From Flavobacterium notoginsengisoli (GTDB lineage Bacteria; Bacteroidota; Bacteroidia; Flavobacteriales; Flavobacteriaceae): a stretch of DNA of 64,000 nt. Below, piece after piece: positions 18,462 to 32,442 of the stretch. The notes under the pieces are model-generated. The model was given only the letters and a program-made list of their open reading frames with translations. It made no database searches and was not told the DNA's origin. The translations under genes and the position numbers were made by a program. The stretch lies in contig NZ_JACHLB010000001.1 of NCBI RefSeq assembly GCF_014207905.1, positions 434,001 to 498,000 of the forward strand. Direction: 5' to 3'. Position 1 is the stretch's first letter. Every line of letters begins with the position of its first letter.

Positions 18462-18872
18462 TTAACAAAACTCGTTAAACGCATCTTGCAAATTCTCAGC
18501 GATTAATTCAGCTGGACGTCCTTCGATGTGGTGACGCTCTAACATGTGAACCAATTCTCCGTTTTTGAACAAAGCCATAGATGGCGATGATGGAGGAAAA
18601 GGAAACATATGTTGTCTTGCAGCATCAACAGCTTCTTTGTCAACACCAGCGAAAACTGTAATAAGGTGATCTGGTTTTTTAGCTCCTTCTAAACTCATTT
18701 TTGCTCCCGGACGTGCATTTCTTGCAGCACAACCGCAAACAGAGTTTACAACAACTAAAGTGGTACCTTCAGCTTTGATAGCATTCTCAACAGCTTCAGC
18801 ACTATGTAAATCTTGAAAACCTGCAGCTGTTAATTCAGCTTCCATTGGTTTTACCATGTCTAGTGGATACAT
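18462..18872 (-). CDS. BrxA/BrxB-family bacilliredoxin (YphP/YqiW type)
   Basis: A 136-residue thioredoxin-fold protein of the bacilliredoxin family, which in Bacillus removes bacillithiol from oxidised proteins. The active site is the unusual CGC in [17 protein letters not shown] (about residues 54-56). Other family stretches are [15 protein letters not shown] at the start and [23 protein letters not shown]. Length is normal. A -7 promoter element TAACTTTG is at 18905-18912 (minus strand), 33 bp upstream of the ATG. Its gene stands alone. The bacillithiol link assumes this organism makes that thiol, which the window does not show. Confidence 0.9.
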
Positions 18873-24919: not shown

Positions 24920-25390
24920 CTACTTTGACTTAAGCAGTTTCTCTAGCAAAAACTGAAAATCTTTTGGAGACAAATAGCTCGAATACTGAAAGATTATTTC
25001 ATTCTTCTCATTCAAAACACACAAAACTGGATAGACAATTTGATTATTGGTTGTTCCAAGCTGTAAAGCGAGCTCATGAACTCCAACATTATTTCCTGAT
25101 GGAAGATATTTAAAGGTTTGTTTATGGAAGATTATATCTCGTTTTTCTTCGGCATTAAAATCAATAAAATAGAAATCTGAATTAAGCTTATCCATGATTT
25201 CTTTGTCTTTGAAAGTGGTGGTTTTCATTCTTTGACAAAACTGACACCAATCGGTATGAATAAAAACAATGATTTTTCGCTTTTGAATTTGCTGTAAGCT
25301 ATCTATTTCTTCAAAAGAATGGCTTTTCAGCTGACCAAAACCTGTTGCTGAAATCCCGAAGAAGAAAATGAATAGAATTAGCTTTTTCAT
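24920..25390 (-). CDS. Secreted thioredoxin-like protein
   Basis: A 156-residue exported thioredoxin-fold protein. A signal peptide (LILFIFFFGISATGFGQ) is followed by a thioredoxin core with active site WCQFC in IVFIHTDWCQFCQRMKTTTF, the pattern of the thioredoxin-7/DUF255-like group. The downstream GVHELALQLGTTNNQIVYPVLCVLNEKN supplies the cis-Pro region. It lies downstream of the TonB receptor gene, same strand, 150 bp apart with a repeat between, so it may be read through from it. A reducing or thiol-relay role in the periplasm is inferred. Confidence 0.83.
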   Translation of the reverse strand: MKKLILFIFFFGISATGFGQLKSHSFEEIDSLQQIQKRKIIVFIHTDWCQFCQRMKTTTFKDKEIMDKLNSDFYFIDFNAEEKRDIIFHKQTFKYLPSGNNVGVHELALQLGTTNNQIVYPVLCVLNEKNEIIFQYSSYLSPKDFQFLLEKLLKSK

Positions 25391-25540: not shown

Positions 25541-27793
25541 TTACCTCAAAGTATATCGCAATCCCAAAAACCCACGAATCGTTTGATTCTGTCCGTAAAC
25601 ATAAGTTGTGTCAAAAGTCAAACCGTACGGATTATCAGGCGTAACCATTACTTTTCCGTTTGTATCGTATTGTACATTTTTATCAAAAGGATCGTTGGTT
25701 CTTGAAATCAAAAACGGATTATTTTGTTTTGGTGTAAAGTTCAGTAAGTTTTTAACTCCGCCATATAATTCAAAGTTCTTCCATCCCGTAAAGGTAAACT
25801 GAATATTCTGAATGCTGTACCAAGGCGAATTTGGATTTCTCGGATCATATTCATTCAGTAAAGGCAATTTCATCGGACTATAAACATTTCCTGTATAATC
25901 CAACAATAAATTCCAAGGCTCTATTTTATATGAAATGCTCCAGGTTCCCGTGAATCTTTCGGTTAAAAAAGGTCTTTCTGAAATTCCGTCTTCCACATTT
26001 TTATTGTCCAAAACTGTTGCTCCAAGAATAAACTTCAAACCATTCGTAAAGTTTAAATCTACATTGGTGCTAATTCCTTGACTGATTGCGTAACCATCAA
26101 TATTATCATAAATAATTTTATTTGGATCTGTTTCGTAATCTGAAATAATCTTATTACTGAATCTGGTATAAAAAGCTGTTGTTTCTATTCCCATAAAAGT
26201 TCCGTTTCCAAAGTTGATCTTCTGAATATAATTCAAATTCACATTTACCGATTTCTCGGGTTTCAAATCATTTTCTATAACAACATCTCTAGAGCCAGTC
26301 AAAGCGGCGTGATCTTCAGTAAAAAGATTAACGACTCTAAACCCTGTTCCTGCATTCAGCCTGAAAATCGTGTTTTCATTGGCTTTGAAACGATAAGCAA
26401 ATCTCGGCGTAAATATTGAACCATGAATGGAGTTATAATCGTATCTCGCTCCCAGCAAAACCTGACTTTTTGGAGAAAAGGTTATTTCGTCCTGAACAAA
26501 AATTCCCGGAAGCCAGGTTTTTTCAGCTTCATTTGTTGCAGGCGTGTTATCATCATAATAAGTATATCGGCTTGCAATTCCTGCTAATAAATCATTTCGA
26601 CCTATTTTTTTATCCCAAGTCAATTGCAGAAAACCTATTTTTTGATTGGCGATGTACGAAGTTGTTCCATAACGGCTGTCCTGATAATGCACGTTTCCTG
26701 AAAACGAAAGCATCAGTTTTTCTTCGAATGGCAATTGGTAACTTCCAATTAATTCAGCTCTTTTCGTATAAATGCTTTCGCCATAAATTTCATCTCCGCC
26801 ACGGTATTTTTTCTCCCAACGAATGTCTCCTCCCCAGCGGTCTTCATACATTCCGCGTGCTGCAATAGTAAAAAGGCGATTATGATTTCGCTGAAAACTC
26901 CATTTATTAAAAACCGAAACACGGTCAGAAAGCGTTACATCTGTAAAATTGTCGTTATCCTTATCAATAACCTGATCGTAATTGAAATAATTGATTCCCA
27001 AAAGAGAAGTCGCTTTTTTGCCAACATTGAACTTCATTCCCAAATCAAGATTGTTTTCCAAATAAGTTGTGGTAAAATAATCAGCAGAAAACACTGGTGC
27101 ATTTGTCGGATTCTTGGTAATAATATTGATTAAACCTCCAACCGCTTCACTTCCGTAAAGAGACGAAGCCGGACCTTTTACGATTTCAATTCGTTCCACT
27201 AAAGAATTCGGAATTCCAGATAAACCATAAACCGTCGAAAGGCTGCTTACAATTGGCATTCCATCAATCATAACCAATGTATAAGGTCCTTCCAAACCAT
27301 TAATATGAATATCTCCCGTATTACAAACCCCGCAATTCAACTGCGGACGAACGCCATTTATGTTTTGCAATGCATCATAAATACTCGGTGTTGGATTTTT
27401 TTTGAAGAAAACCGGAGAATAAACCTCAACCGGAACGGCACTTTCTAAACGTTTTACAGGTTTTAAAGTTCCTGAAACCACTACTTCATTAAGTTCGTTC
27501 TGATCTTCTTTTAATTCAAAATCCAGATTGAGATCCTGATTTTCTAAAACTGTTATTTTCTGGGTCAAAGTTTTGAATCCTGTCGAGGTTACTGCAATTT
27601 TATATGTTCCTACTGGAATATTTTCTAATTGATAATGTCCAATAGAATCTGCTTGAGTTTTAAAGTTTGTGTTTAATAAACGAATGTCAATTTCCTGCAC
27701 AACAGGACTATCTGTAGTTATTTTTCCTGTAATGTTTTGTGAATATATAGATTTAGATGTTATTATTAATATTGTCAAAAATAAATATTTCAT
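25541..27793 (-). CDS. TonB-dependent outer-membrane receptor, probably for metal uptake
   Basis: A 750-residue receptor that imports a ligand across the outer membrane with TonB energy. It has a signal peptide (YLFLTILIITSKSIYSQ), a carboxypeptidase-like beta domain (about 20-105, SVVQEIDIRL and GHYQLENIPVGTYKIAV), a plug with LNEVVVSGTLKPVKRLESAVPV and GLEGPYTLVMIDGMPIV, and a 22-strand barrel ending GFLGLRYTLR. A CGVC pair sits in the plug. A TTG eight codons upstream lies inside the -7 promoter element, so the ATG at 27793 is the start. A DtxR-type dyad covers that promoter, and the same dyad precedes the NRAMP gene, so manganese or iron is the likely cargo. The ligand is inferred. Confidence 0.88.
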   Translation of the reverse strand: MKYLFLTILIITSKSIYSQNITGKITTDSPVVQEIDIRLLNTNFKTQADSIGHYQLENIPVGTYKIAVTSTGFKTLTQKITVLENQDLNLDFELKEDQNELNEVVVSGTLKPVKRLESAVPVEVYSPVFFKKNPTPSIYDALQNINGVRPQLNCGVCNTGDIHINGLEGPYTLVMIDGMPIVSSLSTVYGLSGIPNSLVERIEIVKGPASSLYGSEAVGGLINIITKNPTNAPVFSADYFTTTYLENNLDLGMKFNVGKKATSLLGINYFNYDQVIDKDNDNFTDVTLSDRVSVFNKWSFQRNHNRLFTIAARGMYEDRWGGDIRWEKKYRGGDEIYGESIYTKRAELIGSYQLPFEEKLMLSFSGNVHYQDSRYGTTSYIANQKIGFLQLTWDKKIGRNDLLAGIASRYTYYDDNTPATNEAEKTWLPGIFVQDEITFSPKSQVLLGARYDYNSIHGSIFTPRFAYRFKANENTIFRLNAGTGFRVVNLFTEDHAALTGSRDVVIENDLKPEKSVNVNLNYIQKINFGNGTFMGIETTAFYTRFSNKIISDYETDPNKIIYDNIDGYAISQGISTNVDLNFTNGLKFILGATVLDNKNVEDGISERPFLTERFTGTWSISYKIEPWNLLLDYTGNVYSPMKLPLLNEYDPRNPNSPWYSIQNIQFTFTGWKNFELYGGVKNLLNFTPKQNNPFLISRTNDPFDKNVQYDTNGKVMVTPDNPYGLTFDTTYVYGQNQTIRGFLGLRYTLR

Positions 27794-27808: not shown

Positions 27809-27824
27809 TTTAGACAAAACTAAA
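27809..27824 (-). promoter_or_regulatory. DtxR/MntR-type operator on the TonB receptor promoter
   Basis: TTTAGACAAAACTAAA, arms TTTAG and CTAAA separated by 6 bp. It covers the -7 element and matches the dyad at 29733-29748 in both arms and spacing. The likely ligand is the DtxR-family protein encoded at 31789-32442. Confidence 0.65.
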
Positions 27825-27843
27825 AATTAAATTTGACAAACAA
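27815..27843 (-). promoter_or_regulatory. Promoter of the TonB receptor gene
   Basis: On the minus strand TTG (27841-27843), 18 bp spacer, then TAGTTTTG (27815-27822), matching the Flavobacterium TTG-N17-23-TAnnTTTG form. It lies 22 bp upstream of the ATG. Confidence 0.65.
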
Positions 27844-27907
27844 TGATTCTAGAAACAAAAATTTTCAAACGGATTGAATTCAATATGTTAGATTTTTTTT
27901 TTATTTA

Positions 27908-27974
27908 AAACCATATAAGTTATACAAGAAAATTAAGCCAAGCTTTAAATGAACTTATATAACTTATATGGTTT
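27908..27974. repeat. Inverted-repeat element C, copy 1
   Basis: Perfect 17-bp arms AAACCATATAAGTTATA (27908-27924) and TATAACTTATATGGTTT (27958-27974). Its reverse complement matches the copy at 41201-41282 through both arms and the inner TTCATTTAAA, while the central spacer differs. Confidence 0.8.
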
Positions 27975-27978
27975 ATTT

Positions 27979-28899
27979 TCACTTCGTGTAATCTTCGTCG
28001 ATAAGTTCTTTATTGATAACCGCTCCCGCGAAAGAACCAGTAGAAACCGCAATCGCAACAGATCGCATTGGAGTTGTACAATCACCGCTTGCGAAAACTC
28101 CTGATACATTTGTCTTTTGCATGGCATCAACTTTTATTAAACTTTGTTCGTTGAGTTCACAGCCTAAAGCTTCAGGAATTGGACAATGCTGTTCAAAAGG
28201 CGGTTTGGCATAAACAGCTTTTACCTCAACTTTTTGCTGATTTTTGAAAACTATATTCTGAATATATCCGTCTTGATGTTCAAAAGATTCTATTTCATCT
28301 TCAAAAATCTGAACACCATGATTTTCTAAAGTTTTGGTTTGTTCCAAATTCAGTTCTGATTTTCCATTGGTGCATAATCTAAGATCTTTTGTCCAGTTCG
28401 AGATCAGTTTAGCGTATTCGAAACCCATTTCACCATTGGCAATAATGGCGGTTTTTTCGTTTTTAACTTCATAACCGTGACAGTACGGACAATGTAAAAC
28501 TGAAATTCCCCAGCATTCTGCAAAACCTTTAATTTCTGGAATTAAATCTTTAACTCCTGTTGCAAACAATACTTTTCTGGAAATAAAAACCTCTCCTGAT
28601 GCTGTAGTTACTTCAAATCTATTTTCTTTCTTAACCGCTTTTACAGCAAGTCCATTGTAGAAATGAACTGTTTTATAAAAATCAACTTGTAATTTGGCTT
28701 TCGCCGAAATCACTGCAGGTTTTTCACCGTCATGTGTAATGAAATTATGAGAATGCGGTGTCTGTCTGTTGCAAGGCAGACCGCTGTCGATAACCAAAAC
28801 CTGGCGCAGAGAACGCCCTAAACTCATTGCTGCGGATAATCCACTGTAGCTTCCGCCGATGATAATTACTTCAAAATTTTGCTGTTCCATATTAATCAT
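27979..28899 (-). CDS. NAD(P)/FAD-dependent oxidoreductase, thioredoxin reductase-like
   Basis: A 306-residue two-domain flavoprotein of the thioredoxin reductase fold. The FAD motif is VIIGGSYSGLSAAMSLG; the active-site region is CPYCHGYEV (CxxC, about residues 140-143); the second dinucleotide site is near TAIIANGEMGFEYAKLI; the C-terminal FAD contact is GVFASGDCTTPMRSVAIAVSTG. The start overlaps the merC-like gene by 8 bp; an ATG three codons further in is also possible. It is co-transcribed with the merC-like gene under a promoter covered by two Fur-family-type dyads. The substrate is unknown; similar proteins reduce small thiols or disulfides. Confidence 0.87.
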   Translation of the reverse strand: MINMEQQNFEVIIIGGSYSGLSAAMSLGRSLRQVLVIDSGLPCNRQTPHSHNFITHDGEKPAVISAKAKLQVDFYKTVHFYNGLAVKAVKKENRFEVTTASGEVFISRKVLFATGVKDLIPEIKGFAECWGISVLHCPYCHGYEVKNEKTAIIANGEMGFEYAKLISNWTKDLRLCTNGKSELNLEQTKTLENHGVQIFEDEIESFEHQDGYIQNIVFKNQQKVEVKAVYAKPPFEQHCPIPEALGCELNEQSLIKVDAMQKTNVSGVFASGDCTTPMRSVAIAVSTGSFAGAVINKELIDEDYTK

Positions 28900-29245
28900 G
28901 TTTCTTTTTGTGTAATTTGTAATTAATTAAATGTCCAATGATCATTCCGATGCCGCCAAAATAAATCAGATCCAGATGAATCTCCAGAAATAAATCTGCC
29001 AAAATACTAATCCAGATTAGGCTCATGGAAACAATCAAAATCGATGAAACCAAAAGAGTTGATTTTTTCGTAATTTTGACAATTGCAAACAAACCTATTG
29101 AAGCAAATAGTAAATCGATAATTGGATTGTGACTCAGCCCTAAAGGAAGAATCGTTAAAAGTGGAAAAATCAAACAATGTACGAGGCAAATCGTTGCGCT
29201 TGAAATTCCTAAAATATCGTAAAAGGGTGTTGTTAATTTCTTCAT
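28892..29245 (-). CDS. MerC-domain membrane protein
   Basis: A 117-residue protein with four predicted membrane helices, matching the MerC family. The first helix carries the family Cys and His in ISSATICLVHCLIFPLLTILP. MerC proteins of mercury operons move Hg(II), but members beside Fur-family genes in Bacteroidota are thought to handle other metals, perhaps zinc. It is divergent from the Fur-family gene across a 92-bp region with two dyads, and overlaps the downstream flavoprotein gene. Confidence 0.8.
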   Translation of the reverse strand: MKKLTTPFYDILGISSATICLVHCLIFPLLTILPLGLSHNPIIDLLFASIGLFAIVKITKKSTLLVSSILIVSMSLIWISILADLFLEIHLDLIYFGGIGMIIGHLINYKLHKKKHD

Positions 29246-29264
29246 TTTGTGTACTTTTACTTAA

Positions 29265-29315
29265 TGCAATTTTGTTGCAAATATACAGATTAAATTCAAA
29301 TGCAACATTGTTGCG
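29265..29315. promoter_or_regulatory. Two Fur-family-type dyads over the merC promoter
   Basis: Box 1 TGCAATTTTGTTGCA (29265-29279) and box 2 TGCAACATTGTTGCG (29301-29315), starts 36 bp apart. The merC-direction promoter (minus strand TTG at 29303-29305, N17, TATATTTG at 29278-29285) has its -33 inside box 2, and its -7 overlaps the end of box 1. Binding by the adjacent Fur-family protein would repress it. Confidence 0.6.
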
Positions 29316-29337
29316 TTAATTTTTTTAATTTATAAAA

Positions 29338-29730
29338 ATGAAAACAACACGTAATACTACCGCGAAAACAGCTGTATTAGAGGTATTTGAGAATTCTAAA
29401 ACGGCATTATCACATACCGAGATTCAAAAACAATTGAACGATGTCTGCGATCGCGTGACCATTTATAGAATTTTAGATCGTTTGGTTAACGATGATATTA
29501 TCCACAAAATTTCCAATCTAGACGGAACGGTAAAATATGCAAAATGCAATCATTCGCATCAGCGCGTGCACATTCACAATCATGCACACTTCAGCTGTGA
29601 GAACTGTCATGAAATTACCTGTCTTGAAAATGTAAAGCCAAGTTATATTATGCCGCACAACTATAAAGTAAACGAAATAAACTTTACATTATCAGGATTG
29701 TGTCCAAAATGTTTGAATTCTAACATATAA
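29338..29730 (+). CDS. Fur-family transcriptional regulator (Zur-like candidate)
   Basis: A 130-residue Fur-family metalloregulator. The winged helix is TAVLEVFENSKTALSHTEIQKQL..RVTIYRILDRLV. The dimerisation part is very His-rich (HSHQRVHIHNHAHF) and has the two CxxC pairs of the structural zinc site, CENC and the C-terminal CPKC. Members include Fur, Zur and PerR; the sequence alone does not decide. The divergent MerC-like gene and the two TGCAA-type dyads between them favour a Zur-like or related metal role and autoregulation. Confidence 0.87.
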   Translation: MKTTRNTTAKTAVLEVFENSKTALSHTEIQKQLNDVCDRVTIYRILDRLVNDDIIHKISNLDGTVKYAKCNHSHQRVHIHNHAHFSCENCHEITCLENVKPSYIMPHNYKVNEINFTLSGLCPKCLNSNI

Positions 29731-29732
29731 AT

Positions 29733-29748
29733 TTTAGACTCGCCTAAA
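29733..29748 (+). promoter_or_regulatory. DtxR/MntR-type operator upstream of mntH
   Basis: TTTAGACTCGCCTAAA, extended by one A/T pair on each side to an 18-bp dyad (29732-29749). It ends 4 bp before the -33 TTG of the mntH promoter. It has the same arms and spacing as the dyad on the TonB receptor promoter. Confidence 0.65.
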
Positions 29749-29752
29749 AATA

Positions 29753-29785
29753 TTGTTCCGCGAATATCATTTTTCTATATATTTG
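29753..29785 (+). promoter_or_regulatory. Promoter of mntH
   Basis: TTG (29753-29755), 22-bp spacer, TATATTTG (29778-29785), 19 bp before the ATG at 29805; this fits the Flavobacterium consensus. Confidence 0.6.
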
Positions 29786-29804: not shown

Positions 29805-31676
29805 ATGAGTAAATCTTTAGAAGAAGTCTACGAATCGGTTTCTACAGAACATAAAAAAACAGGATTCAGGAAAATATTAGCCTTTTTAGGTCCAGCCTAT
29901 TTAGTAAGTGTCGGTTATATGGATCCAGGAAACTGGGCAACAGATATTGCCGGCGGAAGCCAATTCGGTTATACTTTGGTTTGGGTTTTATTAATGAGCA
30001 ACTTAATGGCACTCCTTTTACAGAGTTTAAGTGCCCGTCTCGGAATTGTAACGCAGCGTGATTTAGCGCAGGCTTCCCGAGAAACCTATTCAAAATACAT
30101 CAACTACATTTTATACTTTCTAGCCGAAATTGCCATTGCTGCCTGTGATTTGGCCGAAGTACTCGGAATGGCAATCGGGATTAACCTGCTTTTCGGAATT
30201 CCGCTTTTTGAAGGTGTTTTGATTACGGTCTTAGATACTTTTATTTTATTGTTCTTAATCAATAAAGGAATTCGAAAAATGGAAGCTTTTATTATTGCTT
30301 TGGTTGCGATAATTGGTTTTTCATTCATTTTTGAAATGATTTTCGCAGAACCGGAAGTTTCTAAAATTATTGCAGGATTGGTGCCTTCTATTCCAAATTC
30401 TGCCGCTTTATACATCGCAATCGGAATTATCGGAGCAACGGTAATGCCTCACAACCTTTACTTACACTCCTCTTTGGTGCAAACCAGAAAATTCGACAGA
30501 AGTCCAGCAGGAATCAAACAAGCATTAAAATACAATTTTATCGATTCTACTATCGCGCTAAATCTGGCATTCTTTGTCAATGCAGCAATTTTAATTCTTG
30601 CTGCTGCAACATTCCACAAAAACGGAATGTTTGAAGTTGCCGAAATTCAGGATGCTCACAAGTTTCTCGAGCCGCTTTTAGGAAATAAATGGGCGCCAAT
30701 TTTATTTGCCGTCGCTCTGATTGCCGCAGGACAAAGTTCAACGGTGACCGGAACACTTGCAGGACAAATTGTTATGGAGGGCTATTTACATTTAAGGATT
30801 CAGCCTTGGGTTCGTAGAATTATAACACGTTTAATTGCCATTGTTCCTGCTTTGATTGTGATTTGGATTTATGGCGAAGACGTTACTGGAAAGCTTTTAA
30901 TTTTGAGTCAGGTCATTTTAAGCCTTCAATTAGGTTTTGCCATCATTCCGTTAATTCATTTCGTAAGTGATAAATCGAAAATGAATGGTTTTCATATTTC
31001 GAGAACTACTCAAGTTGTTTCATGGATAATTGCTTTGATTATTGTTTCACTAAATGCCAAATTGGTTTATGATGAAATCACTTCGTGGCTTGAAAGCTCA
31101 AATCATCCATTAATTCTATGGTTTACGGTTATACCGCTTGCTTTTGGATTCTTAGGTTTATTATTATACATTGTATTTAAACCATTTATTGCCAAAGCGA
31201 AATCTAAAAAAGTTATTAATCATTCGCCACACAATCTAAAACTTCATTTTACGCCCAAGGAAAGTAAAAGCATTAAAAATATTGCTGTTTCTGTAGATTT
31301 TTCCAGTGCCGACGAAGCGGCTTTAAACAAAGCCTTCGAATTGGGTGGCATCGACACCGAATATACGCTCATTCACATTGTAGAAACGGTTGGAGCATTA
31401 ATGTACGGCATTCACGTCCACGATCATGAAACTACGATTGACGAGAAATTATTGCTGAAATACAAAGAAATGCTTTCAGAAAAAGGATTTAATATCGAAA
31501 CCGAACTTGGTTTTGGAAAACCAGCTAAGATAATTCCAGAAATCATAAACAGCGGTAATTTCGACATTCTCGTAATGGGAACACACGGCCACACCGGACT
31601 AAAAGATATTCTTTTCGGCACAACGGTAGACAAATTGAGACATAAAATTTCAATACCTTTGTTGATAGTAAAATAG
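29805..31676 (+). CDS. mntH: NRAMP Mn2+/Fe2+ transporter fused to a universal stress protein domain
   Basis: A 623-residue inner-membrane proton-coupled divalent metal importer. NRAMP hallmarks are intact: MDPGNWATDIAGG (helix 1) and MPHNLYLHSSLVQTRKF (helix 6 region). The membrane part covers about residues 25-465, with eleven helices. A cytoplasmic UspA domain follows (about 488-623): NIAVSVDFSSADEAALNKAF at its start and the ATP-site pattern G-2x-G-9x-GT in GTHGHTGLKDILFGTT. Classical MntH is about 410 residues, so the Usp part is an addition. A DtxR-type dyad precedes the promoter and a DtxR-family gene follows downstream, which points to manganese as main cargo. Confidence 0.93.
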   Translation: MSKSLEEVYESVSTEHKKTGFRKILAFLGPAYLVSVGYMDPGNWATDIAGGSQFGYTLVWVLLMSNLMALLLQSLSARLGIVTQRDLAQASRETYSKYINYILYFLAEIAIAACDLAEVLGMAIGINLLFGIPLFEGVLITVLDTFILLFLINKGIRKMEAFIIALVAIIGFSFIFEMIFAEPEVSKIIAGLVPSIPNSAALYIAIGIIGATVMPHNLYLHSSLVQTRKFDRSPAGIKQALKYNFIDSTIALNLAFFVNAAILILAAATFHKNGMFEVAEIQDAHKFLEPLLGNKWAPILFAVALIAAGQSSTVTGTLAGQIVMEGYLHLRIQPWVRRIITRLIAIVPALIVIWIYGEDVTGKLLILSQVILSLQLGFAIIPLIHFVSDKSKMNGFHISRTTQVVSWIIALIIVSLNAKLVYDEITSWLESSNHPLILWFTVIPLAFGFLGLLLYIVFKPFIAKAKSKKVINHSPHNLKLHFTPKESKSIKNIAVSVDFSSADEAALNKAFELGGIDTEYTLIHIVETVGALMYGIHVHDHETTIDEKLLLKYKEMLSEKGFNIETELGFGKPAKIIPEIINSGNFDILVMGTHGHTGLKDILFGTTVDKLRHKISIPLLIVK

Positions 31677-31788: not shown

Positions 31789-32442
31789 ATGACCTTTTCA
31801 GAAGAAAACTACCTTAAATCGATCTATCACTTAACCGCTGCTTTGGAAACGGAAGTGAGTACCAATGCTATTGCTGAAATTATGGAAACGAAAGCTTCCT
31901 CGGTTACAGATATGCTTAAAAAACTGGCGGAGAAAGATTTGGTGAATTATAAAAAATACCAAGGAGTTTCTTTGACTGAAAATGGAAAACTGGCAGCCAA
32001 AATGATTGTGAGAAAACATCGTTTATGGGAAGTTTTTTTGGTAGAAAAATTAAATTTCAGCTGGGATGAAGTTCATGATATTGCAGAACAGCTTGAACAT
32101 ATCAAGTCGGAACAGCTGATTAACCGTTTGGATGATTTTCTTGGAAATCCAACCGAAGATCCGCATGGAGATCCAATTCCAGATGCGAACGGCCGAATTA
32201 TTAAGATTGAAAAACACTTGCTTTCTGAATTATCAGATAATCAAACCGGAGTTTGTGTTGGTGTAAAAGATACTTCTTCGGAGTTCTTGAAATATCTAGA
32301 CAAACAGGGAATTGCTTTGGGTTCTAAAATTGAATTTATTTCCAAAGAATCTTTCGATTTATCGGTTAAAATTAAAGTGAATGATAGAGAATTATCTATT
32401 TCAAATAAAATTGCCTCTAACCTATTTGTAAAACTGGTTTAA
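31789..32442 (+). CDS. DtxR/MntR-family metal-dependent repressor
   Basis: A 217-residue three-domain regulator. An N-terminal winged helix (FSEENYLKSIYHLTAALETE, then TNAIAEIMETKASSVTDML) is followed by a dimerisation domain (LAAKMIVRKHRLWEVFLVEKL, HDIAEQLEHIKSEQLINRLDDFL) with His/Glu/Asp metal ligands and a C-terminal FeoA-like SH3 domain (about residues 145-217). It probably senses Mn2+ (or Fe2+) and represses the NRAMP gene just upstream and the TonB receptor, both of which carry the same 16-bp dyad. A bidirectional terminator follows at once. Confidence 0.9.
   Translation: MTFSEENYLKSIYHLTAALETEVSTNAIAEIMETKASSVTDMLKKLAEKDLVNYKKYQGVSLTENGKLAAKMIVRKHRLWEVFLVEKLNFSWDEVHDIAEQLEHIKSEQLINRLDDFLGNPTEDPHGDPIPDANGRIIKIEKHLLSELSDNQTGVCVGVKDTSSEFLKYLDKQGIALGSKIEFISKESFDLSVKIKVNDRELSISNKIASNLFVKLV

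Follow-up and report, generated by a model that had tools for sequence, protein, structure and literature searches.

A stretch of 64,000 nucleotides from the 5.5-Mb genome of Flavobacterium notoginsengisoli (contig C1, positions 434001-498000; hereafter the window) carries two 16-bp dyads of the form TTTAG-N6-CTAAA, one in the promoter of a gene for a TonB-dependent receptor and the other in that of mntH, which encodes an NRAMP protein. Comparative analysis makes it highly likely that the receptor and NRAMP are under one MntR-type repressor, and the repressor of both dyads is very probably the MntR-type protein of the DtxR family encoded at 31789-32442. A shared DtxR/MntR operator is supported by the conservation of both sites, by the lack of refined site and receptor alike in genomes devoid of mntR, by a linkage of receptor and mntR that extends beyond the genus, and by half-sites that change symmetrically where MntR is more distant. 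An earlier note on the window had predicted this common repressor, and these comparisons bear it out; the dyads, their positions relative to the promoter elements and the DtxR-family gene just downstream of mntH were likewise found where it had placed them. The dyads, their positions and conservation, the co-occurrence and a cysteine pair in the receptor are direct observations.

Both operators were located by sequence match. The first, TTTAGACAAAACTAAA (27809-27824), lies 15 bases before the receptor ATG at 27793 on the reverse strand, and the second, TTTAGACTCGCCTAAA (29733-29748), 56 bases before the mntH ATG. The receptor (25541-27793, reverse strand; 750 amino acids) has the Pfam plug (PF07715), barrel (PF00593) and carboxypeptidase-regulatory-like domains. 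An alternative start at TTG 27817, which would place part of the dyad within the gene, was rejected because the alignments of homologues begin at ATG 27793 and because the dyad shows conservation as a promoter element. On the forward strand, mntH (29805-31676) encodes an NRAMP protein with a C-terminal universal-stress domain (Pfam Nramp and Usp), which is a member of the MntH subfamily (601 bits against an NCBIfam cut-off of 430). Matches to this fusion (29805-31676) within the genus span nearly its full length.

Conservation was assessed by footprinting across 120 Flavobacterium genomes, among which the receptor is present in 83, NRAMP in 82 and the DtxR protein in 112. The search covered 150 bases before every gene start; duplicates among the upstream regions were counted a single time, and short regions were excluded. 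The exact dyad is present before 76 of the 78 receptor orthologues; for mntH the count is 65 of 81, and for other open reading frames (ORFs) in the same loci 0 of 142. The two receptor misses remain counted as such: in locus L066 the BLAST start is shifted and, by coordinates, an exact site lies about 54 bases upstream, and in L094 the dyad has one mismatch; L104 was left uncounted, its upstream stretch being too short. The dyad also precedes 30 of 96 mntR genes; in the arrangement of the window, mntR follows mntH. Ten of the 16 mntH genes without a dyad sit behind mntR, in the order mntR-mntH, and in these ten loci the dyad is found before mntR (exact in nine, with one mismatch in the tenth), while the other six have no adjoining mntR. 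Upstream of the remaining neighbours it is rare or absent: thioredoxin-fold genes 0/52, Fur-family genes 0/36, merC 2/34 and thioredoxin-reductase-like genes 2/28.

In many species the receptor is divergent from mntH or mntR, the two genes being 79-272 bases apart, and the exact dyad is found in 42 of 43 such intergenic regions, the last differing by one base (two of the entries, L063 and L098, are the same locus). From the end of the dyad to mntH the median distance is 56 bases in the 19 loci in which the receptor shares the dyad (range 51-62) and again 56 in the 46 loci without such sharing (52-63); the corresponding distance to the receptor has a median of 15 bases (76 loci, 9-46). Because the distances are equal in shared and unshared loci, the two sites of the window look like one ancestral shared operator, doubled since a block of MerC, Fur-family and thioredoxin-reductase-like genes came between receptor and mntH.

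The positions of the two dyads differ with respect to the Bacteroidota promoter consensus, which consists of a -33 TTG and a -7 TAnnTTTG. At the receptor, the -7 element TAGTTTTG (27815-27822, reverse strand; assigned from the consensus) falls within the dyad, with a likely -33 TTG at 27841-27843, 18 bases away on the same strand. At mntH, four bases part the dyad from the putative -33 TTG (29753-29755), which is followed by the -7 element TATATTTG (29778-29785, forward strand; a match to TAnnTTTG). The geometry recurs across the genus: TAnnTTTG begins exactly two bases inside the dyad in 70 of the 76 receptor promoters, so that TTTAGnTTTGYCTAAA amounts to dyad and -7 element together, whereas in most of the 65 mntH promoters it begins 43-48 bases past the dyad start, which places the dyad just upstream of -33. 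The double role of the receptor dyad explains why its core hardly varies (CAAA on the other strand), whereas the core of the mntH type is variable in the window's clade (TTTAGRCWNGYCTAAA-like). An operator that encloses the -7 element would be expected to shut the receptor promoter off tightly, and one upstream of -33 to give looser control of mntH.

That the dyads might match a common AT-rich pattern independently, by chance, deserves consideration, given the frequency of the bare motif. Within the window there are three exact matches to TTTAG-N6-CTAAA against 0.23 expected, a count reached in one of 100 shuffles; with one mismatch allowed the window is unremarkable (11 against 7.4, with at least 11 in 16 of 100 shuffles). 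A genome-wide scan, set beforehand as a test of the prediction, was unfavourable for the bare pattern, which occurs at 74 places compared with 66 for the reversed pattern, that is, without enrichment; being so common, it proves little by itself. The refined pattern TTTAGRCAAADCTAAAAA does discriminate: it is found exactly in 98 of the 120 genomes, eight of them with two places, giving 106 sites against two for the control. With two mismatches it discriminates less well (55 against 32 in this genome). The pattern TTTAGRCNNNNCTAAAAA matches three places in this genome, namely the receptor, mntH and a third operon described below, and its reversed control also three, so that the count alone is not significant; controls also matched often in a looser scan of 199 genomes of the family (136 with a match), which was used only for these three places. 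Taken with the footprinting, in which 76 of 78 receptors contrast with no control region at all, the refined scan leaves chance a negligible probability. Nineteen of the 106 refined sites, by coordinates not beside receptor or NRAMP, were fetched, and the remaining 87 were placed by coordinates, not all being read. Four of the 19 (genomes G013, G010, G061 and G088) lie within unrelated ORFs and were taken as chance matches. The third bare match of the window (18678-18693) falls inside an ORF of 136 amino acids (18462-18872) that we presume to resemble a bacilliredoxin; similar ORFs occur near mntH or mntR in several species without the receptor.

The putative regulator (31789-32442, forward strand) has the helix-turn-helix and metal-binding/dimerisation domains of its family (PF01325 and PF02742) together with a FeoA domain, and is predicted to bind both operators. 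Its absence is informative: the eight of the 120 genomes without mntR all lack both the exact refined site and the receptor (Fisher's exact test, p = 3.8e-7 and 4.6e-5, respectively, kinship ignored). These eight genomes, which are small and 90-95% complete, could be related to one another. Six of them keep NRAMP, and of the five with a readable upstream region four have no dyad. Glu81, Glu100, Glu103, His104 and His126 are invariant in all 95 MntR sequences of the genus, and Glu100 occupies what we take to be the position of Cys102 in DtxR. ScaR and SloR, from Gram-positive bacteria and with a different operator sequence, resemble the regulator over its full length, including the C-terminal domain, and in their structures (3hrs and 5cvi) also have glutamate at the position aligned with Glu100.

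The association extends beyond the genus. A receptor profile search returned 568 loci, the best 80 of which (38 with titles naming Flavobacterium and 42 without) form the basis of the following counts. Either mntR or mntH lies within 5 kb of the receptor in 72 loci (mntR in 62), the recurrent partners of the receptor being mntR with NRAMP or, in other species, with a ZIP protein, and the exact dyad occurs within 250 bases upstream of the receptor in 64. Nine of the 16 loci without it carry GTTAG-N6-CTAAC, in which the outer base is altered in both halves, as expected of a dyad bound by a protein; seven of these nine have mntR in the same stretch, 40-52% identical to that of the window (Pedobacter, Chryseobacterium, Chitinophagaceae). 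Five further loci have neither form. One contig (L266), titled as a Klebsiella pneumoniae metagenome-assembled genome, holds a receptor 80% identical to that of the window and is probably mis-binned or mislabelled.

The same loci bear on a second candidate regulator. Three genes that the earlier note had not mentioned lie between the two dyads, identified by domain search as encoding a thioredoxin-reductase-like protein (27979-28899, reverse strand), MerC (28892-29245, reverse strand) and a Fur-family protein (29338-29730, forward strand), and the last, sitting between both sites, could in principle be the owner of the dyads. Its distribution speaks otherwise, as the Fur-family gene, together with merC, is present in 20 of the best 80 loci, compared with 62 for mntR and 64 for the exact dyad. 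A different pair of palindromes, TGCAATTTTGTTGCA and TGCAACATTGTTGCG (29263-29320), lies between merC and the Fur-family gene; of 32 such regions, 31 keep the first and all 32 the second. These are probably the operators of the Fur-family protein itself. On its distribution and its own palindromes the Fur-family protein was ruled out as regulator, and its ownership of the dyads is very improbable.

The receptor is distinguished by a thiol pair in its plug. Cys154-x-x-Cys157, within the motif NC-x-x-CNTGDI, shows no variation in either of two overlapping alignments, one with 14 and the other with 23 receptor sequences, and reads CGVC in the window. An AlphaFold2 model has a mean pLDDT of 65.9, falling below 50 across residues 145-190, which include the pair, and nothing was drawn from it. 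A thioredoxin-fold protein with the motif WCQFC, identified by domain search, is encoded at 24920-25390 on the reverse strand, directly downstream of the receptor; relatives occupy this position in many loci and, as noted above, have no dyad of their own, and the gene is probably co-transcribed with the receptor. In four genomes another receptor, 25-28% identical, stands at the same operator, with CQNC in the plug in three and CQTC in one; the window receptor is about 27% identical to such a CQNC-type receptor of another Flavobacterium. A search for this alternative receptor in 197 genomes of the class found it in 24, and the cysteine pair is present in 27 of 27 match rows, fragments included. 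An exact TTTAG-N6-CTAAA lies within 250 bases upstream in ten of the 27 rows, and in 13 if the outer bases are left free, against a background of 14 exact matches in the 130,399 bases of these stretches altogether. The link between thiol pair and operator thus reaches beyond one receptor family. The CQNC receptor has five matches in the window's own genome, the window receptor and four weaker ones; the two of these four that were read (L314 and L315) have no Cys-x-x-Cys.

Among the precedents found, the closest is Stenotrophomonas maltophilia, and it alone offers experiments on a receptor of this kind controlled by MntR. There, a 2026 paper describes an MntR-controlled CQNC TonB receptor and a periplasmic thioredoxin-fold protein, using reporters and an mntR deletion (PMC13217887). 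Shared with the window are a Cys-x-x-Cys plug receptor, a thioredoxin-fold gene directly downstream, and mntR and mntH nearby, control by MntR being predicted here from the operators (PMC13217887). The window receptor has CGVC instead of CQNC and may therefore be said to work like that receptor, not to be one; moreover, the S. maltophilia MntR box is 25 bp long against 16 bp for the dyad, and in Flavobacterium a single operator can control the receptor as well as the importer, the two systems being likened by description and not by sequence (PMC13217887). TonB-dependent manganese uptake, which the earlier note had called little described, is thus already on record, both there and for MnoT of Burkholderia thailandensis (PMC9334652; PMC8602904; PMC13217887). 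MnoT is a TonB-dependent receptor for Mn2+ induced by low manganese and differs in working with a manganese-binding effector that is secreted by an OxyR-activated system; this comparison, too, is by description (PMC8602904; PMC9334652). No report of such a system in Bacteroidota was found in the open-licence literature, subscription journals being mostly outside it. In the main text, 'Bacteroid' does not occur in the Stenotrophomonas paper (PMC13217887), nor do 'manganese' or 'DtxR' in a transcriptome paper on Flavobacterium psychrophilum (PMC9723704).

As to the cargo, the receptor is fairly likely to be a manganese importer. Metal uptake through the receptor, which the earlier note had also predicted, gains indirect support from the NRAMP and ZIP partners, from the glutamate at the presumed Cys102 position and, by analogy, from the Cys-x-x-Cys receptor under MntR in Stenotrophomonas (PMC13217887). 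The main rival is iron: operator and regulator would be as described, with an iron chelate or iron as cargo and the DtxR protein acting mainly as an iron sensor. Most characterised TonB receptors do carry iron chelates, the NCBIfam matches of the receptor comprise siderophore, haem and B12 receptors (all under cut-off), and Fe2+ is a possible substrate of NRAMP and ZIP proteins. Iron limitation is a further requirement of the S. maltophilia receptor (PMC13217887). Set against this are the invariant Glu, not Cys, at the position of DtxR Cys102, a presumed mapping supported by the ScaR and SloR alignment, and the membership of NRAMP in the MntH subfamily. In addition, the Stenotrophomonas counterpart is silenced by 80 nM manganese (PMC13217887), and an iron cargo appears unlikely. 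Another substrate, such as copper, zinc or a thiol-reactive metal, might instead merely be needed when manganese is short, or the cysteine pair might have a redox role unrelated to manganese. The pair and its thioredoxin-fold partner would suit soft metals or redox chemistry, and in the window's clade genes for MerC, a thioredoxin-reductase-like protein and a Fur-family protein lie nearby; the scarcity of merC and the Fur-family gene beside the receptor relative to mntR, the different palindromes of the MerC/Fur-family promoter and the recurrent pairing with mntR and NRAMP or ZIP make this quite improbable.

Several further points, besides the frequency of the bare dyad, weigh against manganese uptake under MntR. 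Thiols are soft ligands and unusual for Mn2+. Relatedness among the genomes inflates all counts, and we infer MntR binding, the identity of the metal, transport, the direction of control and the role of the thiols from comparisons of sequence. With 157.7 bits the regulator scores below the cut-off of 350 of the NCBIfam MntR equivalog (NF047407), and it is therefore named MntR-type and not a certified equivalog. Locus L078, in a genome without mntR, has a one-mismatch dyad before mntH, and the position of the mntH operator upstream of -33 makes activation also conceivable. Two of the best 80 loci (L282 and L296) have unequal outer bases, and TTTAG-N6-CTAAA is retained in a Saprospiraceae locus (L279) whose MntR is just 49% identical, so that the form of the operator is not strictly tied to MntR identity. 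In S. maltophilia the receptor is linked to iron limitation as well, and its expression still fell with manganese when mntR was missing (PMC13217887). Finally, 29 of the 112 MntR-bearing genomes have no receptor, and 21 of these have a substitute at the operator.

One substitute is a protein of about 247 amino acids with a PF13557 domain (Pfam was run on one of the proteins), probably an outer-membrane barrel, which in 17 of the 120 genomes is encoded divergently from mntR or mntH and is 50-100% identical to the query; hits below 50% identity (seven in six genomes, all with the receptor) were left out. Sixteen of these loci were read (L214, L215, L217-L222, L068, L072, L074, L084, L090, L097, L106 and L107), and the seventeenth (G098), which has no exact refined site, was placed by coordinates. 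A dyad lies between the PF13557 gene and mntR or mntH in 16 of the 16 read loci, in eight of which the importer behind mntR is of the ZIP type in place of NRAMP (Pfam run on one). The receptor is found in none of the 17 genomes, compared with 83 of the other 103 (p = 8e-11, kinship ignored). MnoP is a channel and is not known to depend on TonB. In Bradyrhizobium it provides an outer-membrane entry for manganese that is needed when the metal is scarce (PMC9334652), and the PF13557 substitute may be compared with it by description.

Eight MntR-bearing genomes have neither the receptor, nor the alternative receptor, nor the PF13557 protein. In two of them (G075, assigned by Pfam, and G117, by resemblance) an operon for a di-haem oxidoreductase, a Rieske protein and an unnamed protein is divergent from mntH at the dyad. 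The third refined dyad of the present genome (C4:50462-50479; L205:4963-4980) likewise lies nine bases before an operon of a di-haem oxidoreductase (PF06537), a Rieske protein and an unnamed ORF, and a similar operon bears the dyad in G008, G067 and G084. The di-haem/Rieske/efflux regions of G008 and G084 (L207 and L211) are identical over 9850 of 9850 bases, and the two therefore count as one; their NRAMPs, by contrast, share 68% and 83% identity with the query, and the identity of the regions reflects either a recent transfer or a contaminating contig. A tentative generalisation, which we hold to be possible and somewhat short of probable, is that manganese entry into the periplasm takes place, across Bacteroidia, by way of an outer-membrane slot under MntR control. 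This could be filled by at least two families of Cys-x-x-Cys TonB receptors, redox-gated and in many species with their own thioredoxin-fold protein, or by the small PF13557 barrel as a manganese channel, sometimes with a di-haem/Rieske operon, receptor and barrel being mutually exclusive.

Taken as a whole, the observations are probably best explained by MntR operators, joint derepression of receptor and NRAMP, and uptake of the metal across two membranes. Both dyads would be operators of the MntR-type protein (31789-32442). When cytoplasmic metal, most likely Mn2+, is sufficient, metal-loaded MntR would bind them, shutting the receptor promoter tightly through the enclosed -7 element and mntH more loosely. 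When the metal is short, MntR would leave, and the receptor, its thioredoxin-fold partner and NRAMP would be made together. The metal, either free or as a chelate, would cross the outer membrane by the TonB-driven receptor and the inner one by NRAMP, while the Cys-x-x-Cys of the plug may be part of the substrate-binding site or a thiol gate held reduced by the thioredoxin-fold protein.

The crossing of the outer membrane by manganese is known in few bacteria, and the present locus offers a specific, conserved candidate for an active route in a very large bacterial group, tied to a thiol pair that a hard metal ion should not need. Many TonB receptors are encoded in a Flavobacterium genome, and for one of them a function can thereby be proposed; one is also suggested for the PF13557 protein, whose family is named after phenol degradation. 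In Flavobacterium, a genus of soil and water, one manganese-type repressor appears to let an outer-membrane pump be made together with an inner-membrane importer of manganese when the metal is scarce.

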